In this document: positions 3,327-24,744 of the stretch, piece after piece
How positions within the stretch are numbered: the first letter of the stretch is position 1
Layout of the letters: each line of letters begins with the position of its first letter
Origin: a virus
Reading direction: 5' to 3' (one strand)
DNA: 34,015 nt
IMG/VR virus record: IMGVR_UViG_3300029923_000068
Location: 1-34,015 of that record
Position numbers and translations under genes: made by a program
Notes under the pieces: generated by a model
Seen by the model: only the letters and a program-made list of their open reading frames with translations
The model's database searches: none
What the model was told of the DNA's origin: nothing

Positions 3327-5412
3327 ATGGCTGGTGAATATAAAAGTTCGATACGTCTTGGCGTTCAGTTAGAAAGTGAAAAAGATGTTAGTGGAAGATT
3401 ACAAACTTTAATAAATACTTTACAAAAAGAAAAAATTAATTTAGATATAAATATTGCAAATTCAGATGTAGCTAAACAATTAGAAACTTTAACTACTTTA
3501 GCAAATAATTTTAAAAATAGTTTGGGTAGTAATGTTTCATTAGGTAACGTGAATGAGATTATTAATCAAGTTACCTCTGCAATGGTTAGTATGAATGACC
3601 AAGTATTAAAGACATCAAGAGTTGATATAGGTGATGGAATAACCAAACAATTAAAACAAACTGCTGAAGGTATTGGTGTAGTTAAAAGAGAATTACAATT
3701 ATTAGATAAAGATGATAATAACACTTCTAAAATAAAACCTACAACTACAACAGATTATAATAAAATAAGACAATCAATAGAAGATATAACAAAAGCACAA
3801 AAGCAATTAAATGCCTTAGAATCTAATGGATTTTCTGATATTAATAAGATTGCTTACTTAAAAACTATGCTAAGTAATCCAAATAGTATAGGTTCAGATA
3901 ATGAATTAAAAGGTTATTTAAATCAAGTTAAAGAATTGTTAGCAACTGAATCAAAAGTTATTGAATATTCAAATAAATTAAATTCTCTGAAGTCTAATAT
4001 GACTAATTTAACCGATGAGAAATATTCAAATGTTTTAAATACACAATCATTTGAACAAATAATTAATGAGATAAATAATGCTCAAAATGGATTGAAAAAC
4101 TTCGATGGTATAAATTTAAACGGCTTAAAACAACAATTTGATGAGTTGAGTGGAACTGTTTCTAAGTTTAGCACTGAAACTATAAGTTCTCAAAAAGCAG
4201 AACAAGATAATATAAAACAAAGAGAAAAATTAGAATCAGATAGGATATCTCAAATTCAGAAAGAAATAGATTTAAGCAATAAATTAGTTGAAAATGAACA
4301 AAAGAGACAAGTAAAAGATGATTCAGCTAATTTAAAGCAATTAGAACAAGAACAGACTCTGTTACAAAAACAAGCAGAAGCATACCAACATATAGACGCA
4401 TTAAAATCAAACGGAATAGTAAATGAATCAGATATATCTAAACTTGAACAAATGGTTAAGAATTCTAAATCACTTCAAGATGTACGTAATGCAATTAATT
4501 CTATTATGAATACATCAATGATGAAAGAATCGTCTATTGTTACTATGTCTAAACAATTAGATGATGCACAAATTAAATTGGATAAAATGAAGCAGAGTTT
4601 CGGAAATAAGTTGCCACAAGGCTTCGTAGAATCTACACAATCTGAAATTAATAAATTAAAAGAAGATTTAACTAAAGTAGATAGTATGGGATTCAATGGT
4701 CTTAAAAATAGCTTGAATCAAGTTAATACTAATATGAAAGTAACCACTAACGAAACTCAACAATTAGTTAATTCTTTGAAAGAAACTAACAATGGTTCAT
4801 TCTTTAGTGGAATCTCTAATTTTTTAGGTAAAGTTGGTATTTTTTATGGTGTTCAACAGGTAGTTCAAGAGATTAGTCAGCAGTTTAAAGATGCTAGTGA
4901 ATATACTCAATCTTTAGATAAAAATGTGACAAATATTGAAATGATCACCTCGAAGAGTAAGGAAGAAGTTATTGGATTAACTAATCAATTTAAGGAATTA
5001 GGTGCTCAATTACATATAACTAATCAAGAAATGTTAGCAGGGTCAGAAGAACTTTTAAGGGCAGGTTTTGACAATAACACTACCAATAAAATGCTGGAAG
5101 CAAGTTCGATGGCTAGTAAGATTTCAGGTCAAACTACACAGGCAACAACAGAACAATTAATTGCAATTAAGAATTCTTTCAATATGACTGGCGACCAAAT
5201 GCAACATGTAATTGATGTTATTTCTAAATTAGATAATTCTAGTGCTACAAGTTTCGCTGAAATTTCTTCAGCAATTATGAGAACTAGTTTTAGTGCCCAA
5301 CAAGCCGGAACAAGCTTTGATACGCTTTCAAGCTATGTAACTACAGTAAGTGAGAAGACTCGTAGATCGGCAGAGACTATTGGAGAAGCATTTAAGAGTA
5401 TTTATAGCAGAT
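3327..5412 (+). CDS. Tape measure protein, exon 1 (residues 1-695 plus one base)
   Basis: Start of the protein that sets tail length and passes down the tail tube during DNA ejection. ATG 3327 follows AAAGGAGAG. Residues 1-480 are almost entirely coiled coil (Leu, Gln, Lys, Asn, Glu). From about 510 comes the conserved TP901-type phage-minor-tail domain, with ANGxEELLRAGF-like and ETIGEAFKSIYSR-like segments. Unspliced translation would continue into the intron and stop after 12 foreign residues at 5450, giving 707 residues. The exon boundary is set after T5412: joining to A5726 gives codon TAT and the run S-R-Y-Y-N-I-K-L-G, the expected conserved motif. Family assignment is strong. Confidence 0.9.
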
Positions 5413-5725
5413 TAATGATAAAAATAGTCTGCCTATACAGTAATGTATAGATAAAAACTAGGTGAACCTGTAAATATAGGGTGTGCTATTAAATATAGTG
5501 CTAACGATGAAAGTCTAAGTTATTTAATAAAATAAATAATATGATAATATCGTGCCAAGTCTAAGTAATTAGAAAGGTGTAACGACTAAATTGGATTAAT
5601 AATCCTAAGAGGTTTGAGGTGAAATTCCTTATTCCGTAGTGCCTAGCCCTCATGTGAGGTGAAGAGATAGTCTACTCCCACTTTTTAATAAGTGTTAAAG
5701 TATAGTGAAAACTAGGGTAAAAAGG
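5413..5725 (+). ncRNA. Self-splicing group I intron (IA-like, no ORF) in the tape measure gene
   Basis: 313 nt. P1: exon bases GCAGAT (5407-5412) pair with the guide GTCTGC (5427-5432), leaving the required U-G pair at the 5' site. P2: CTATAC (5433-5438) with GTATAG (5445-5450). P3: AACCT (5465-5469) with AGGTT (5610-5614). P7: GACTA (5584-5588) with TAGTC (5668-5672), in the typical GAAGAGATAGTC context. A GGATT/AATCC hairpin between P7 and P3' fits the extra helices of subgroup IA. CCTCA/TGAGG is a P8 candidate, and CACTT/AAGTG (5679-5694) fits P9. The intron ends in G5725. There is no endonuclease inside. The two nearest homing enzymes (148 and 20271) could act in trans, but this is only a guess. 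Confidence 0.9.
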
Positions 5726-8700
5726 ATTATAACATAAAGTTAGGGAATATTGATGAGGATGGTAAAAACATAAATGACGTTGAGAAGGCAATGAATAACG
5801 TCGGTATTGCAATTCGTTCATCTAAGGGTGAGTTTAAGGATTTCGATGAGGTTTTAAATGAATTTGTGAATAAATATAAAAAAGGAACAATGAGTCAAGT
5901 TGATTTCTTAGCTGGAATAAACACGCTCGGTGGTTCTAGACAGAAAGAGACGATACTTAGTTTAGTCGAGAATTTCGACCAAGTTAAAAAACATCAAGAT
6001 GATTTAACAAAAGCTACTGGTTCAGCTAAACAAATGTATGATGTTTATTCTCAATCTTTAGAAGCAAGAATATCTGATCTAAAAAGAGCATTTGAAGGAT
6101 TGTATGAAAAAATAATGTCTTCGGATTCTTTAAAATGGCTAGTTTCAGAAGCTACTAATTTAATAACTGCACTATCAAATCTAGATGGAAAATCAATAAC
6201 ATATATAGCAACAATTGGAACATTAAGTTTAGCATTGTCAAAATTAGTTAAAATTAACAAAGAATTGATGCTATTAACTACAGAAGGTGGAATAGTAACT
6301 GGATTAACTAAATTTATTGGATTAGCTTCGGGAATGGTATCTTTAGAGAATGGGGCTACCGGTGTAGCAACTGCATTTGGTGTATTAGGAACTAGTATTA
6401 AAGGAGCTACTGCATCCGCTATGGGTTTTATAGCTACGCCAATTGGTTTAGCTATAACTTCAATCACTGCTGTTATAGGAGTTGCAATTTATGGATTTGT
6501 TTCGTATCAACAACATCAAGCTGAGTTAACAGAACAATCTAAGTCTCTTAAATCAGCACTCGATGGCGTTAATAATTCTCTAAAGGGTGGAGACACTACT
6601 AAGGCACAAGAAGAAGCTAACAAAATGAAATCAGCACAAGAAAAGTTACAACAATATATTGAGTTAAGAAAGAAAGCACAAGATACTGATTCTAAATCAT
6701 TAAATCCTACTGCAAGCGGTACAAACCAAACATCTGTAATAGAAGGGTTTAATCAAAAAATTAAAGAACAAATAAAAGTACTTACCGATGCTGGTTATAC
6801 AGTTGAAGAAACTACTGGGAAAATAAAAGAATTTACTGACGCACAAGATAAAATATATAATACTAAAATAATAAATAGTATTAAAGAACAAACAAAATCA
6901 CAATTAGAACATAGAGAAAATTTAGACAAAGTACAAGCTGAATATAATAATTATATTTCAACAGTTAAAAATTTGTATACAGAATATCAAAACTTATCTG
7001 CACAAGAAAATTTGTCGGCGGAACAAAAAACTAAACTACAGGGTACAGTAGAACAATTACAAGGTAAAATGAGTGGATTGAATGTCTCTATTGATGAAAA
7101 TGGAAAAGTATTAATTTCAAATTCACCATTAATAGAAGCAAATATTCAGAAATTAATATCAGAAGGACTTACAGTTGATAATTTATCAGCTATTCGTATA
7201 ACAGATTCTAAGGTAAATTCTCAATGGCAAGTAGGGAATTCTCAAGTTACATATAATGAAATAACAAATAGAATTGAAATGTATAAAGCTGAGATAAAAG
7301 CGATACAATCTGTTATTCAAGCAAGAATGGCTGGGGCATCTGATTATTCAACGATGAGTATAGGTAAAGCACAAAGTCTAGAAGCTGGTTCACCAGAATT
7401 TGATAAACTAAAAGAAGAAACTGACCAATTACATGCGTATGAGAAAGCGAAAAAAGAAGCAGATGATTTATATGCTGGGATAGGAAGTGTTGCATATTCT
7501 GCTCCTAGTGGAGGTGGTGTACAAACACCATCTAATGGAGATTATATGCCTTCTGGTGGGGATTCTAGCGAGAAAAAAAAGGCAGAAAAAGAACTTGAAG
7601 ATTCAGAAAAGAAAATGTTATCTAATATCACAGATGCTTATAAACAAGCAAAAGATACTATATCGAATAATATTGAAGAAATAGATGCAAAGATAACTGG
7701 ATTAGGTGATATAGATGATTCTAATTTTACTCAAAAAGTTTCACTTGTAAATGATAAAATAGGTGAACAAAAGCAAATAGTTGAAAAAGCACAAGAACAG
7801 TTAGACTCTTTAAAAAATACAACGGTAACAACGGCAGATGCACAAAAGGAACTTGAATCTGCAACTTTATCTGCATCGAAGGAATTACGACAAGAAAGTT
7901 TAGAAGTAGCAAAATTACAATCAGAAATTGAAAAAACTGATATTGATGAACTAAAGAAAATGTATGAAGATCAACAAAAGATTGAAACAGAAACTTTAGA
8001 AGCTAATCAAAAAGCACAAACAGATAAAATAGAATCTATTAAGAAAGCACAAGAAGATGCACATAATGAGATAATGGATGACTATGAGGATGAATTAGAT
8101 GCTTTAGATAAAAAATCTAAGAAATTAGATGAAGATAATGACAAGATAGATAGAGCTAATGAATTAGAAAAAGAGAAAAATGATTTAACAGAAAAACAAA
8201 AAGAGTTAAATAATGTTAAAAGTCAATTAACTAATCAAGTATATCAAAAGCAAGCAGATGGAACATGGCAATTTGAGTATGTTGCAGATACTCAAAAGAT
8301 TGCAGAAAAACAAAAAGAAGTTACAGAAGCACAAAAAACTCTTGATGATACAAATAGAAAAAATTCACTAGATGATGCTAAAAAAGAAATAGAAGATAAA
8401 AAAAGTGTTATTGAAGCTGATAAAAAAGCAGAAGATGAAGCATATACAAAGAAGAAAGCATATTTAGATGAGTATTCCTCTTATTTGAAAGAATCACAAG
8501 AGAGAGACACGAAACGTCTCGAGAATCATTATTCAGATATTGAAAAAATGGCAAAAGATACATTAAAGAAATTAGAAGAAGAGCATAACAATGATTGGAA
8601 TGCTATTTCAGATTCAATTTCAGCTACACTAACTAGAACTAAAAAAGCATTAGAAGACTTAACTACATTAAGAGCTAATTTTACAACTTCGGAAGCAAAT

Positions 8701-9645
8701 GATGCTATTAATAGTGGGGATGTATCAGGATATTTAACAAAAAATAAAGATAAAATGAATTTAAAAGCAAGTGTAGATGAAAGTGATATAGATTCTCATT
8801 TAAATTCTATTAGTGACAAAGCAGATAAGGCTAACAATTCAGTTACTATATTGAATAAAACTTATGACGAATTATTATCAAAGAAAAGCATTAATATAAC
8901 CGAAGCTGATATTAATAATAAGAAAGTTCAAGTTCAAAAGCAAGTAGATATAGATAATGAAGGTTTAACAACTACTTTGAATAATTTAAAAGCTATTAAT
9001 CTAGCAATTGAAACAGAAATAGACTCTCATTATTCAAAGGTAATTGACAAGCAAACTCAAGCACAACAAAATGAGATGACTAGCTTACAAAACTTTGCAA
9101 AAGAATATACTATTTATTATAATAAATTCCTAGAATTAGTACAAACAGTTAATGACTTTAGATTTAATAATATTGTAGTGAATGTACAAGCATCTGTAGA
9201 CAATGTATTACAAGGATTAGAAGTTATAGCAAAGGCTTATGAAAAATATGCTAAGGCATATAATAAAATGCACCCAGACGATACTATTTCTTCTAGTATT
9301 GATATATCAGATGTACAAAGTGCGAATACATCCTATAAAAAATCCGTAAGTGATTATCAAGCTAATGTATTGTCATCATATTCTGCCGAAGCTTTTGAAA
9401 AATATGCAAGTCAAATTGGAAGTGGAATAGGAGATAGTTTATTGAGTAAGTTAAATAATTATAGTAGTTCTACTAGTAATATTAATAACACAAATAACGC
9501 TTCCACAACTAATAATAGTAATAAATCTACAACATCTAATACAACTAATGTAAATATAAATCAACTTGATGTAAATACAAAGGACGCACAAAATTTATTA
9601 AATCAATTGTTAACAATAGTTAAAAATAAAACAAATTTGAGTTAG
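5726..9645 (+). CDS. Tape measure protein, exon 2 (residues 696-2001)
   Basis: Reading continues in the same frame from A5726 as Y-Y-N-I-K-L-G-N-I-D-E-D-G, the second half of the conserved TP901 motif. The ATG at 5791 is therefore internal, not a gene start. Hydrophobic stretches at about 850-870 and 890-955 are the membrane-active segments usual in tape measure proteins. A long Lys/Glu/Gln heptad region covers about 1310-1650. The C-terminus is Asn/Ser/Thr rich. With exon 1 the protein is 2001 residues, which by the usual rule of roughly 1.5 angstrom per residue implies a long flexible tail of about 300 nm. The stop codon lies in the 5' arm of the terminator at 9639. Confidence 0.9.
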
Positions 9646-19740: not shown

Positions 19741-19908
19741 AGTGAGTTGATAAATTGGACTTTTTATCAAGAGTTTATGCATTTAAAATAACCATTTTAA
19801 GTTAACTTTGACTTTTAAGAATGGCTCTATGACTAGGTTTGAAGATTTAGTTTCCGTAACAAATGTTATGTCACTCACTCAAGATAAGACTTAATTCGTA
19901 GTTTATCT
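19741..19908. other. Densely structured non-coding segment between two terminators
   Basis: The gap 19656-20075 has no clear protein gene. Within it, AGTGAGT (19741-19747) pairs with ACTCACT (19873-19879) and encloses three hairpins: TTGATAAA/TTTATCAA (19747-19754 with 19763-19770, sharing one base with the outer helix), CCATT...AATGG (19792-19801 with 19814-19824, one bulge) and CGTAAC/GTTATG (19855-19860 with 19865-19870). AGATAA/TTATCT (19882-19887 with 19903-19908) follows. Hairpins are common by chance in such AT-rich DNA, so this is only a candidate RNA. Confidence 0.35.
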
Positions 19909-20255: not shown

Positions 20256-20270
20256 GGAGTGTGGATAATT

Positions 20271-21200: not shown

Positions 21201-21987
21201 AATTGATGGAAAAGTTATTAAAGGATGGTATCAAGATACTAATAACGATAAATGGTATCATTTAAATGAGTCAACTGGTGTTTTAGATACTGGATGGTTT
21301 CAAGATAAAGACTCTAGATGGTACTATCTTGATGAACAAAATGGAGATTTAAAAACAGGATGGATTCAATTAAAATCTGTATGGTTTTATCTTGAATCTT
21401 CTAGCAATGGCTATATGGGAGAGTGTTATATTAATAGAACTGCAATAATTGATAGTAGGTCTTACACATTTAATGAAAATGGACATATTATTGAAGATAG
21501 TAATGTTAGTGATTCTTTAGTTTCAGAAGATTGTATTTCATTCGTGAAATCTTTTGAAGGATTTTTCCCGAACAAATACTACGATTGCGTTGGTGTTTTG
21601 ACCCAAGGATATGGACTTACCGGAAAAGAAATTGCTAATTTGCCCGATGAAATTACAGAAGAACAAGCTAGTAATTTATTAAAAGAATTAATTAACTCTA
21701 ATTATGCTCAAGTAATAAAAGATGATTTAGATTCTAAAGGCATAACATTAACTCAAAATGAATTTGATGCATTATGTTCATTTGCATATAATTGTGGAAC
21801 GGATGCTCTTTTACATCAATCTACATTATATAGAAACGTGTGTAATGGAATTAAAGATGCAGATACTATTACTTCTAATTTTAAAGCATGGTCTAATGGT
21901 GGAGGTAAAAGAATAGAAGGTTTATATCGTAGAAGAACTAAAGAAGCTAACATTTTTAATAATGCAGATTATACAGGAAACAATTAA
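21175..21987 (+). CDS. Endolysin: N-terminal choline-binding-type repeats, C-terminal T4-type lysozyme (GH24)
   Basis: 270 residues, ATG after AAGGAGGAAATAGCG. Residues about 5-75 carry three tandem W/Y repeats of the CW_binding_1 type (GWYQDTNNDKWYHL, GWFQDKDSRWYYL, GWIQLKSVWFYL), which in known proteins bind choline on teichoic acids. Residues about 115-265 form a T4-lysozyme-like muramidase with the triad E128 (SFEG), D137 (YYDC) and T143 (LTQGYG), then FDALCSFAYNCG and EGLYRRRTKE. It cuts peptidoglycan at lysis; no signal peptide was seen, so release depends on the holin. Most Gram-positive lysins put the catalytic domain first, so the reversed order is notable. Confidence 0.88.
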   Translation: MNQWKWCVEIDGKVIKGWYQDTNNDKWYHLNESTGVLDTGWFQDKDSRWYYLDEQNGDLKTGWIQLKSVWFYLESSSNGYMGECYINRTAIIDSRSYTFNENGHIIEDSNVSDSLVSEDCISFVKSFEGFFPNKYYDCVGVLTQGYGLTGKEIANLPDEITEEQASNLLKELINSNYAQVIKDDLDSKGITLTQNEFDALCSFAYNCGTDALLHQSTLYRNVCNGIKDADTITSNFKAWSNGGGKRIEGLYRRRTKEANIFNNADYTGNN

Positions 21988-22022
21988 ATAAATTAAAACA
22001 AAATTTTAAGGAGGAATATATT

Positions 22023-22489: not shown

Positions 22490-22589
22490 ATTGGATAGAT
22501 AGGAAGTCATGAGCCTATTGATAAGGGGTAAATTCCTACACCCTTTCCAATGTATTAAAAGTAGGAAAATAAATCAAGAAAGTAGGAAT
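22490..22589 (+). promoter_or_regulatory. Structured leader RNA with loop-to-RBS pseudoknot (element 2)
   Basis: Seen: P1 ATTGGA (22490-22495) with TCCAAT (22546-22551). P2 ATAGG (22499-22503) with CCTAT (22514-22518). P3 AAGGGGT (22523-22529) with ACCCTTT (22540-22546), sharing T22546 with P1. The 10-nt P3 loop AAATTCCTAC (22530-22539) is complementary over 8 nt to GTAGGAAT (22582-22589), which is itself the ribosome binding site of the primase-like gene, and over 7 nt to GTAGGAA (22561-22567). Layout and spacings match element 1 at 26-144, although the sequences differ. No known riboswitch class was recognised. Confidence 0.55.
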
Positions 22590-22593
22590 AAAC

Positions 22594-24261
22594 ATGTATA
22601 GTAAAGAAGAACTAAAAACAATGGATAAGGATATTAAAGTAAAGAAATTCCTTAAATTAATTTATAGGGGTTTTGATGAAGATGAAGAATATATAAGGAT
22701 ATTTCAAAATAATGAAACTAGAAATACTCCAGCAACAGAAACTAAAGTAAAATTCTATAATGATATTGATAGTGTTGTTAATTATGTTACAAGTGGTACT
22801 AAATACAATAAAAATACATATTTTCAACTAGCAACAGTTGATGATAGTGGTGAAGGTAAAATTGAAAATTTGCTTTATCGATATTGTATTGGACTTGATT
22901 TTGATAAAAAGGAATTAGGTGAAGATTTTGACCATTTAGATATATTAAACTTGTTCAAGCAATATAAAATTCATTTTCATTGTCTCATAGATTCAGGTAA
23001 TGGATTTCATGTATATATTTGTATTAATAAAACAAATAAACTTGATATGGTTAATGAAGTTCAAAAAGCATTATGTGAGAAGTTTGGAGCGGATAAATTT
23101 GCTATTAAGAAAACACAGATTTTGCGAATTCCATATTCATATAATATTAAAGATGAGGATAAAACAAAATTAGTAAAGATAGTTGCAATGGATAACAGAG
23201 ATGAAATTAGACCATATGATATAGAATTTTTATATGAAAAGAATTGTAAAAATACAGTTATAAATAATCCTAGTGAAAAGAAAATTACCTATATGATTAA
23301 TAATACTAATATTCCAAAATGTATAACTAAAATATTAGAAAATGGAACTATTGAAGGAGATAGATATTTAGATCTCCAAAAAATAGTTATTAATCTAAGA
23401 CAAAGAAATAAAACAGTTGAAGAAATAATATTAGTATGTAAATCATGGGCAGAAAAGAGTAGCTATAATGACAACTTAGAGTATAGAATCAAAAATATAT
23501 ATGACAATTTAAAATATGTACATATGGAATGCAAAGAATGTGATAATAAAAGTGAATGCTTTAATTTTACAGAATCGGAATTTGACTTTAATTCATTAGC
23601 TGATGAAGATGGAGTAATTTATGAAACTTATCAATTAGAAGATAAAATAACAAAGAAAATTAGAAATAAACAAAATGGAGGGATTAACATGTTAAATGGA
23701 AATGAAATTTTAATATTAAATGTATTAAGGTTAGAATATGATAATCCAAGACCACTTACCAAAAATGGTACAGATATGAAATTATTAATGAGAAGTATAA
23801 CTCATAAAAATAAATCTTGTTTATCTGAAAATACAGTAAGAGAAACTTTGATTAGTTTAATTGAGAAAAAATATGTATTAGAAGAGATTGGGTTAAGAAA
23901 TAAAAAACATTATAAATTTAATCCAATAAGAACTACTTTAGATAAAACAATAAAAATAAGTTATATGGCAACAGTATTATGTATTTGTAAACAAATTAGT
24001 ACAAATGAATTAGCATTATACATATTAATGAGATACTTACATAAGCAACAATTATTAGAAAATAAAACAAAAGGAAATCTATTCACAATGACTCAATCTG
24101 ATTTAGCTAAAGCATATTATGGAAATAGTACAACTGAAAATCAAACACATATAAGTAAAATGATAAAGAATTTATTAGATTGTCATATTATTGATATTTA
24201 TGATATTGAACAAAGTAAGAATAATGGATTTGAATATTATAGATATAGACTTAATAGCTAG
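22594..24261 (+). CDS. Archaeo-eukaryotic primase (AEP)-like protein with C-terminal winged-helix segment
   Basis: 555 residues, ATG after AGTAGGA. The N-terminal 220 residues show primase-superfamily motifs: I-G-L-D102-F-D104 (metal-binding DxD), D-S-G-N-G-F-H139-V-Y-I (SxH-type motif) and R178-I-P-Y-S-Y-N-I-K. A helical PriCT-like region with GDRYLDLQKIVINLRQRNKT lies at about 265-310. A cysteine cluster C313-x2-C316-x5-C322 is next, perhaps metal binding. The C-terminal third (about 370-555) is helical, with winged-helix-like segments (LSENTVRETLISLIEKKYV). It may prime or initiate DNA synthesis. An early-type gene in the middle of late tail genes, behind a structured leader, is unusual. 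Fold class likely; the substrate is unknown. Confidence 0.68.
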   Translation: MYSKEELKTMDKDIKVKKFLKLIYRGFDEDEEYIRIFQNNETRNTPATETKVKFYNDIDSVVNYVTSGTKYNKNTYFQLATVDDSGEGKIENLLYRYCIGLDFDKKELGEDFDHLDILNLFKQYKIHFHCLIDSGNGFHVYICINKTNKLDMVNEVQKALCEKFGADKFAIKKTQILRIPYSYNIKDEDKTKLVKIVAMDNRDEIRPYDIEFLYEKNCKNTVINNPSEKKITYMINNTNIPKCITKILENGTIEGDRYLDLQKIVINLRQRNKTVEEIILVCKSWAEKSSYNDNLEYRIKNIYDNLKYVHMECKECDNKSECFNFTESEFDFNSLADEDGVIYETYQLEDKITKKIRNKQNGGINMLNGNEILILNVLRLEYDNPRPLTKNGTDMKLLMRSITHKNKSCLSENTVRETLISLIEKKYVLEEIGLRNKKHYKFNPIRTTLDKTIKISYMATVLCICKQISTNELALYILMRYLHKQQLLENKTKGNLFTMTQSDLAKAYYGNSTTENQTHISKMIKNLLDCHIIDIYDIEQSKNNGFEYYRYRLNS

Positions 24262-24310: not shown

Positions 24311-24441
24311 ATAGACCAAAGTTGAGGTGGTAAAGTTTAATAATGGCTATATCACTAGGTTTAAATAGTATCATAGAATGTAATTTATCTATACCAAAAA
24401 CATGAAACTGAATAAATTAATATAAATTAAGGGGTAATTAA

Positions 24442-24744
24442 ATGAGTGGAGTATATATTTTAAATAATGTTAATAAAAATAAATCAGACAAGCTATATGT
24501 AAAAATTGGATGTAGTAAAGACATTTTAAAAAGAATATCTCAGATAAGAAGTTCATTTAGGTTTAATGGTAACTTAGATGAACTTTATTTATATAAAACT
24601 ATAGAATGTACGGAATATAAACAACTTGAGAAAATTTTACATCAAATAATGAAGTCAAGAAAGATAACTAATGAGTGGTTTCTTACTGAGGAAAGCTTTT
24701 TACTGAATAGGTTAAATATGGTTGATTTAGGTAGATACAAGTAA
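24442..24744 (+). CDS. Small T5orf172/Mug113-type protein (GIY-YIG superfamily)
   Basis: 100 residues, ATG after TTAAGGGGTAATTAA. It starts SGVYILNNV, then YVKIGCSKDILKRISQIRSSF, a helix with ELYLYKTIEC, then LEKILHQIMKSRK and EWFLTEESF. This order (GVYIL, vKIGxSxDxxxR, E..lH....r...EWF) is typical of the T5orf172/Mug113 branch of the GIY-YIG superfamily. Such small proteins are common in phages; their role is poorly known, and DNA cleavage is not certain. It lies alone between its own possible promoter and a strong terminator. Confidence 0.75.
   Translation: MSGVYILNNVNKNKSDKLYVKIGCSKDILKRISQIRSSFRFNGNLDELYLYKTIECTEYKQLEKILHQIMKSRKITNEWFLTEESFLLNRLNMVDLGRYK

Follow-up and report, generated by a model that had tools for sequence, protein, structure and literature searches.

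Comparative evidence for a three-way-junction leader RNA with two alternative loop partners and a self-complementary loop before homing-endonuclease-like and replication genes of phages

We analysed a 34,015-nucleotide (nt) stretch of viral DNA, positions 1 to 34,015 of the IMG/VR record IMGVR_UViG_3300029923_000068 (hereafter the window), in which an RNA element, element D, occupies positions 22490-22594 and leads into a 555-amino-acid (aa) open reading frame (ORF; 22594-24261) that we take to be primase-like from motifs recognised by eye; both are on the + strand, as are all parts given below. Element D begins with the 5' strand of stem P1 (ATTGG, 22490-22494), which pairs with CCAAT at 22547-22551; P1 covaries in the family described below. 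The junction segment J1/2 (AUA, 22495-22497) leads into stem P2 (GATAGG, 22498-22503, with CCTATT, 22514-22519), whose loop AAGTCATGAG (22504-22513) holds the self-complementary TCATGA at 22507-22512 and is a candidate kissing loop. After J2/3 (GAY, 22520-22522) comes stem P3 (AAGGGGT, 22523-22529, with ACCCTTT, 22540-22546), which encloses the loop L3, AAATTCCTAC (22530-22539), and is followed by the P1 3' strand without a gap. Two segments complementary to L3 lie downstream, namely site A (GTAGGAA, 22561-22567) and the start-proximal site B (GTAGGAAT, 22582-22589) in the Shine-Dalgarno (SD) region, ahead of the ATG at 22594. Stem strands were assigned by parsing, junctions from sequence and parse, and the two sites from sequence, the triplet pattern given below and pairing scores. 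An initial annotation of the window had already described the loop, its two tandem copies, the junction of P3 with P1 and the spacings (21 nt from L3 to copy 1, a period of 21 nt, and 12 nt between the start of copy 2 and the ATG). When the sequence was re-read, every part was at its place, the positions of L3, GTAGGAA, GTAGGAAT and ATG agreed to the base, the P3 3' strand adjoined the P1 3' strand and the three spacings were right. The earlier description thus holds at single-base resolution, and the element is genuine. The palindrome in the P2 loop, the narrow range of distances between copy 1 and the P1 3' strand, and the ability of copy 2 to span the start codon are additions of the present analysis.

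The same layout, as had been claimed for a first element, was found at about 26-150 of the window (element C). Its P1 5' strand (26-33) pairs with 97-104, the palindrome TTGCAA, which also occurs in other members, lies in the P2 loop at 50-55, and P3 (75-79 with 92-96) and L3 (80-91) occupy 75-96, all by eye; sites A and B are both GGTTAGT (115-121 and 138-144; sequence and triplet pattern). Behind it stands a 612-aa homing-endonuclease-like gene (148-1986) that matches phrog_4538 (unknown function) and phrog_9084 (homing endonuclease). The same or a very near phage is represented by the 218-kb contig IMGVR_UViG_3300028864_000016, where element D is identical and the genes behind elements C and D are 100% identical; the first 1000 bases of the window are present in that contig, and the whole window and its last 1000 bases were not found there. 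We searched 218,000 bases of this contig for the triplet pattern rc(R)...R...R, where R is 7 nt with at least three G or C. Results showed four places, all on the + strand, with none on the - strand and none in 20 shuffles; when the G/C condition was dropped, AT-rich matches dominated (33 on +, 35 on -). Requiring a stem and a start codon with a 6-nt R returned the same four places, with one match in total in 12 shuffles. They are elements C and D and two new ones, element A (~31.6 kb) and element B (~42.9 kb of the contig), which precede paralogues of the gene behind element C, and the repeat sequence differs in each of the four. Six paralogous homing-endonuclease-like genes occur in this phage (L010, L011, L012, L015, L018; L numbers denote loci throughout), and the leader RNA precedes just the + strand trio, which lies among the virion genes. 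Before the three - strand paralogues no element was found by eye, by pattern searches or with model R1 (see below), which also misses B and C. The junctions in this phage read AUA then AA in element A, ACA in B and AA in C.

Further members were sought before phage endonuclease genes, as had been proposed, and many were found. From 47 loci with homologues of the element-C endonuclease, taken from viral contigs, the element was recognised in about 11 of 30 endonuclease loci (triplet scan, upstream reading and covariance model; duplicates merged by hand). Degenerate patterns built from shared letters, which demanded GATAG, GG, CC and GAYAAG and left two P2-loop letters free, matched 47 and 35 viral-contig stretches, 60 of them distinct. 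We parsed 63 members, the protein-derived ones included (element D is L131), while four loci stayed unparsed (L115, L124, L142, L144). Two later patterns with the six central P2-loop letters free matched 72 and 65 stretches, partly shared and partly chance. Covariance model R1, built from 8 sequences, found 97 matches (E <= 0.1) when run on 89 loci, and model R2, built from the R1 matches without further vetting, gave 56 at E <= 0.05 in 77 further loci; together they yield 153 rows and 119 distinct core sequences, some of them alike. Four single members were compared by BLASTN with named phages. This pointed to Polaribacter phage P12002L, present as two records, and, with E 0.5, to Sporosarcina phage Lietuvens; model R2 confirmed both (38.7 and 55.6 bits, respectively), and the remaining matches were taken as chance. 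Neither the window nor 20 pattern-fetched loci matched any Rfam 15 family at gathering score, and relaxed thresholds gave just weak matches to unrelated families for element D, L139 and L132. Model R2 found no match in 391 Clostridia-class genomes, a sample without a positive control, so that this empty answer shows nothing.

The consensus is a three-way junction, P1-AUA-P2-GAY-P3, in which P3 enters P1 without a gap. P1 was modelled with 7 base pairs (bp), its outer pairs being often absent (85% and 89% of P1 cells are paired). P2 has mostly 5-7 bp, usually with closing GG/CC and a loop of mostly 9-10 nt (92/114), and P3 has 4-10 bp, usually starting with AAG and ending with YUU around L3. 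Across the first alignment (70 distinct rows), 93.3% of cells are paired and 383 are changed on both sides (shuffled mean 119), with a covariation score of 0.727 (shuffled 0.214); none of 500 shuffles was as high on any of five measures, and slid-structure controls gave 32-60 cells changed on both sides. The second alignment (49 distinct rows, whose cores, going by counts, include none identical to first-set cores) has 252 such cells (shuffled 68.9) and a score of 0.708 (0.209), with 0/500 shuffles as high on four measures and 2/500 on the number of pairs changed on both sides. Fitting to the structure, as was done for both alignments, works in its favour; given how large the effect is and how few cells the slid controls gave, we regard this bias as minor. 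It is virtually certain that these sequences form a structured RNA family.

To assess L3, the pairing of each loop with its own downstream tail was scored against the loops and tails of other members (L073, with its short tail, was left out of the first test, and L235, L187 and L226, 3 of 49, out of the later one). The best score reached 16 in 53 of 62 own combinations against 10.4% of swapped ones, and a second, separate site at >=16 was found in 35 of 62 against 1.5% of swapped tails. A second site at >=14 was present in 32 of the 46 later members against 2.6%. The initial annotation had read the changed bases and kept pairings as covariation, and this holds: the second L3 site clearly beats swapped tails in both sets (62 and 46 members), and the complementarity of loop and copies is kept in many other genomes. 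With lenient scores and a start codon required from -8 to +14 nt of site B, a placement without a control of its own, 59 of 63 members could be assigned both sites; the nearness of B to the start is a condition of this placement, not a finding. Site A begins 13-20 nt past the first base of the P1 3' strand in 42/59 and never below 13, although no minimum was set; it pairs up to the last L3 base in 50/59, and the number of unpaired 5' L3 bases is most often two (21/59). Such geometry of loop and site is that of an H-type pseudoknot. Gaps between sites A and B range from 0 to 88 nt, with 0, 1 and 2 nt in L121, L116 and L122, respectively. The two sites usually end at the same L3 base (39/59); in the long L3 loops of L070, L110 and L127, the 5' part is the partner of B and the 3' part that of A, with an overlap in mid-loop, and L082 has the same split by eye, though the script picked another site there. 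Site B of L070, ATGCCTGA, spans the AUG, and no SD is seen. The family therefore holds alternative pairings of the expression-platform type, L3-A and L3-B.

A second conserved property concerns the P2 loop. The two free loop letters of the first two patterns are complementary in all 59 distinct hits (A-T 34, C-G 21, T-A 4). A 6-nt Watson-Crick palindrome occurs in 89 of 114 parsed loops (5 of 119 were unparsed and excluded), compared with 12.4 (max 20) in shuffled loops, and a G.U-tolerant one in 104/114, compared with 26.7 (max 40). Among the 44 distinct loops, 24 carry a Watson-Crick palindrome, against 4.2 in shuffles (max 11). Related loops are not independent, and more weight falls on how many different palindromes there are. 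TAATTA, TCATGA, TTATAA, TGATCA, TTGCAA, TAGCTA, TCGCGA, GTCGAC and ATTAAT were found, together with ATCGAT (L053:8463) and TGGCCA (L234) by eye; UAAUUA is the commonest (41/114). Ten loops miss at the G.U level, five of them visibly parse errors or the GACG case (L224, L202, L083, the main L088 element, L234:9782), all kept as misses. That case, L224:5770 (5770-5825), has a P2 of GCCC-GACG-GGGC, a GACG tetraloop in place of the 6-nt palindrome, and GACG loops kiss in SL2 of Moloney murine sarcoma virus (MoMuSV), according to PMC7357161. Most members thus carry a 6-nt palindrome in an apical loop, the feature that marks known dimerization initiation sites, and, judged from these palindromes, P2 reasonably likely serves as a kissing loop for homodimers.

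Homing-endonuclease-like families are the commonest among the genes behind the element. We scanned 58 of 63 proteins of the first set (leaving out L131 and four ORFs <40 aa) and 43 of 47 of the second (four ORFs <40 aa left out); the tallies are per family, one protein may match several, and a few ORFs were chosen by length and may be wrong (e.g. L224). Pfam matches in the first set (n=58) were DUF4379 13, HNH_3 11, NUMOD4 8, GIY-YIG 5, I-HmuI NUMOD-like 4, HNH 3 and others, and PHROG matches were HNH endonuclease family 559 20, phrog_4538 20 and homing endonuclease 9084 18. The second set (n=43) gave DUF4379 11, HNH_3 9, NUMOD4 8 and phrog_559 18. Ten proteins unlike endonucleases were scanned against PHROG: seven match replication-initiation or DnaD-like helicase-loader families (L109, L119, L183, L187, L199, L200, L236), L206 has a weak primosomal-family match, L111 matches an integrase, and the tenth is the 555-aa protein behind element D (see below); L195 is an integrase by Pfam. 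L184, going by its likeness to L183, also stands before a replication-initiator/helicase-loader gene. In Polaribacter phage P12002L the element is flanked by endolysin and an HNH homing endonuclease, and in Sporosarcina phage Lietuvens by terminase and an HNH endonuclease. The hosts of these two phages belong to Bacteroidota and Bacillota, respectively. The 555-aa protein behind element D matched, among PHROGs, only phrog_3123 and weakly (unknown function, E 1.5e-4), had no match in Pfam or NCBIfam and one weak match among PDB sequences (E 0.64); its single-sequence fold had a mean predicted local distance difference test score (pLDDT) of 37.8.

The linker between the copies deserves separate mention. 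The initial annotation had noted its likeness in elements C and D, which did not stand as evidence of relatedness: AATAAATYAA is unspecific, and AATAAATTAA is spread over the 218-kb contig, with 138 copies compared with 21.8 in shuffles, and mostly follows the orientation of the neighbouring genes (gene strand 41:0 in the + region, 87:10 elsewhere). It is seen in the window, for example at 124-133 and 21987-21996, and in L009-L019. A longer form, AATAAATTAATAGAA, has 20 copies against 0.08 in shuffles. The motif often stands before a ribosome-binding site (RBS) or a TTGAC box, and would be part of a promoter, an RNA processing signal or some other mark of gene starts. Elsewhere in the window, a group I intron (RF00028) was matched at 5458-5695 with 38.3 bits (E 2.4e-8), short of the gathering score, which is 50. 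It separates ORFs 3327-5450 and 5791-9645, and these to the eye resemble two exons of a single tape-measure gene. Similar short stretches (aatggct..a..actaggttt) lie at 19830-19870 and 24345-24395, upstream of a GIY-YIG-type ORF at 20259 and a T5orf172 ORF at 24442, and are perhaps another leader element. Translation of a leader peptide from the AUG within the TCATGA loop was considered by eye and rejected: the frame is open through element D, early stops occur in the few other members read (L132, L120, L133), and TAATTA loops hold no AUG.

Comparison across members demonstrates a conserved RNA with two largely exclusive predicted partners for L3 and a self-complementary P2 loop. Its most probable role, in our judgement from the sequences, is that of a cis-acting leader that controls translation of the following gene by a switch between L3-A and L3-B. 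The leader folds, as the comparison shows, into the three-way junction of P1, P2 and P3, and L3 can pair with either downstream site. Pairing with site A would form an H-type pseudoknot and leave the ribosome start region open, whereas pairing with site B would cover that region and block initiation; the two pairings exclude each other because they mostly use the same loop bases. That L3-B acts on translation initiation appears likely, and we slightly favour the site A-paired form as the on rather than the off state. Which site is chosen, A or B, would then constitute the switch, under the control of P2-loop homodimerisation, a junction ligand or both. If the loop dimerises, the leader would be its own antisense RNA and the concentration of the message would matter; that the leader senses this concentration, with palindromic P2 loops kissing and the dimer flipping L3 between A and B, we put forward tentatively, as somewhat doubtful. 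Such control may serve to keep down, or to time, DNA-acting proteins, namely homing-endonuclease-like proteins, replication initiators, helicase loaders and integrases.

Several results weigh against this interpretation. The fold energy of element D as a single sequence is unremarkable (z 0.13, 141 nt), so that the evidence for an RNA is comparative. Junction letters are kept in most members, and the patterns demanded these letters, so that their near-invariance is partly by construction; the junction varies in matches obtained from protein homology or a model alone (B, C, L086:2159, L098:4870 and L164, the last with GAUAA...GAAAAG). The covariance models miss elements B and C, whose assignment is by architecture alone. 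The background of the L3 test is high, a best score >=12 being reached by 62/62 own and 58% of swapped combinations, and site B with a start could not be placed in L069, L074, L125 and L141. Site A scores higher than site B in 18 members, equally in 24 and lower in 17 (n=59); A is not clearly stronger, and the default state is therefore not readable from the sequence. As for dimerisation, the most frequent palindrome, UAAUUA, forms only a weak free duplex (-0.4 kcal/mol, compared with -5.0 for UCAUGA and -7.9 for the HIV-type GUGCAC); L041, L171, L088:430 and L157 have no 6-nt palindrome, that of L193 requires G.U, and L226 is perhaps a false match (E 0.035).

Other mechanisms would account for part of these observations. 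The two exclusive pairings are what an expression platform would provide, and junction letters that are mostly kept (partly by construction of the patterns) beside freely varying stems would suit a metabolite riboswitch in which the junction (AUA, GAY, AAG/YUU) binds a small molecule and self-pairing of P2 is secondary. Most riboswitches are host-borne, whereas R2 had no match in the 391 Clostridia-class genomes (again without positive control); an endonuclease, replication-initiator and integrase gene set suggests no metabolite, and the P2 palindromes would be left unexplained. We hold this reading to be unlikely, though it is the foremost of the alternatives. Timing of the T4 type, in which the inhibitory structure is present on read-through transcripts and absent from those started by a promoter in the A-B linker, seems improbable. 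It has precedent in I-TevI, segB and mobE (PMC2988022), and the linker AATAAATYAA of this phage resembles a motif strongly over-represented before genes; yet A-B gaps of 0, 1 and 2 nt leave no room for a promoter, which for this reason is not a general explanation, and site A and the palindrome would have no role.

The way the long loops are divided between B (5' part) and A (3' part) is also what a splint would look like in a ribozyme or mini-intron whose L3 aligns splice or cleavage sites at A and B. Such a role is very improbable, as the pairings of A and B mostly share one end base in L3, three members have an A-B gap of 0-2 nt, and the members tested have no Rfam ribozyme or intron match. 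The initial annotation had also considered a DNA-level explanation, repeat operators bound by a protein. Direct repeats do stand near the start codon in most members, but the repeat varies from element to element, even inside one phage, while the pairing persists, and what is conserved is L3 pairing together with covariation of three stems; an operator is hardly credible on this evidence. Translational control by a leader that switches between L3-A and L3-B is the reading we prefer.

What is known of leader control in phage homing endonucleases comes from single structures of T4 relatives. In the present family a single architecture recurs ahead of unrelated endonuclease families and ahead of genes for replication and integration, and would be a module fitted by phages to dose-sensitive DNA enzymes. 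If the leader does sense the concentration of its message, endonucleases, initiators, helicase loaders and integrases are all served by one device, in phages from at least two bacterial phyla, and phages would have a built-in copy-number control without a separate antisense RNA. The RNA is short and easily synthesised, which allows direct testing of dimerisation, pseudoknot exchange and translation, and two named phages are included. It is unusual for an mRNA leader to conserve a self-complementary loop; the review table in PMC7357161 includes kissing loops with 6-nt palindromes for human immunodeficiency virus type 1 (HIV-1) and oskar. We found no description of this RNA among the papers listed by the literature searches, with subscription journals and preprints mostly outside them; the 2010 list of PMC2864571 or the human-microbiome list of PMC8040213, both seen as partial texts, may hold an unnamed entry.

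Among known systems, the leader is first to be compared with those of T4 and its relatives. The T4 cases are stems. RNA structures in the T4 family hide the RBS of homing endonucleases, and a late promoter frees it (PMC2988022); like the leaders of I-TevI, I-TevII, I-TevIII, segB and Aeh1 mobE described there, the present one is an RNA before phage homing endonucleases that can hide an RBS. It differs in that the RBS is not paired inside a hairpin stem, as in the T4 type, since site B pairs with the hairpin loop L3, and also in its three-way junction, the two alternative sites of one loop, the covariation across many phages and the self-complementary second loop. The dimerization initiation site (DIS) of HIV-1 has a loop of 9 nt. 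An apical loop with a 6-nt palindrome and flanking purines likens the P2 hairpin to the HIV-1 DIS and the oskar 3' untranslated region, and one member (L224) carries GACG, as in the kissing loops of Moloney murine leukaemia virus (MoMuLV) and MoMuSV (PMC7357161). Unlike DIS-type loops, P2 sits in a phage mRNA leader coupled to a start-site pseudoknot and uses many palindromes, and its dimer is a prediction. Loop-loop kissing and a pseudoknot at the initiator RBS decide translation of repZ of plasmid ColIb-P9, and some members here likewise precede replication initiators, as in plasmid copy control; the partner of repZ is a separate antisense RNA, whereas here the loop would be its own partner. 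The preQ1 and SAM-II translational riboswitches use pseudoknots that pair with the SD, and share with this RNA a compact fold whose loop pairs at the RBS; they differ from it in that this RNA has no known ligand, has an extra site A, is phage-borne in the collections searched and, for the members tested, has no Rfam match. A cis-acting leader that masks the start site is thus a known kind of RNA, and its architecture here is new.

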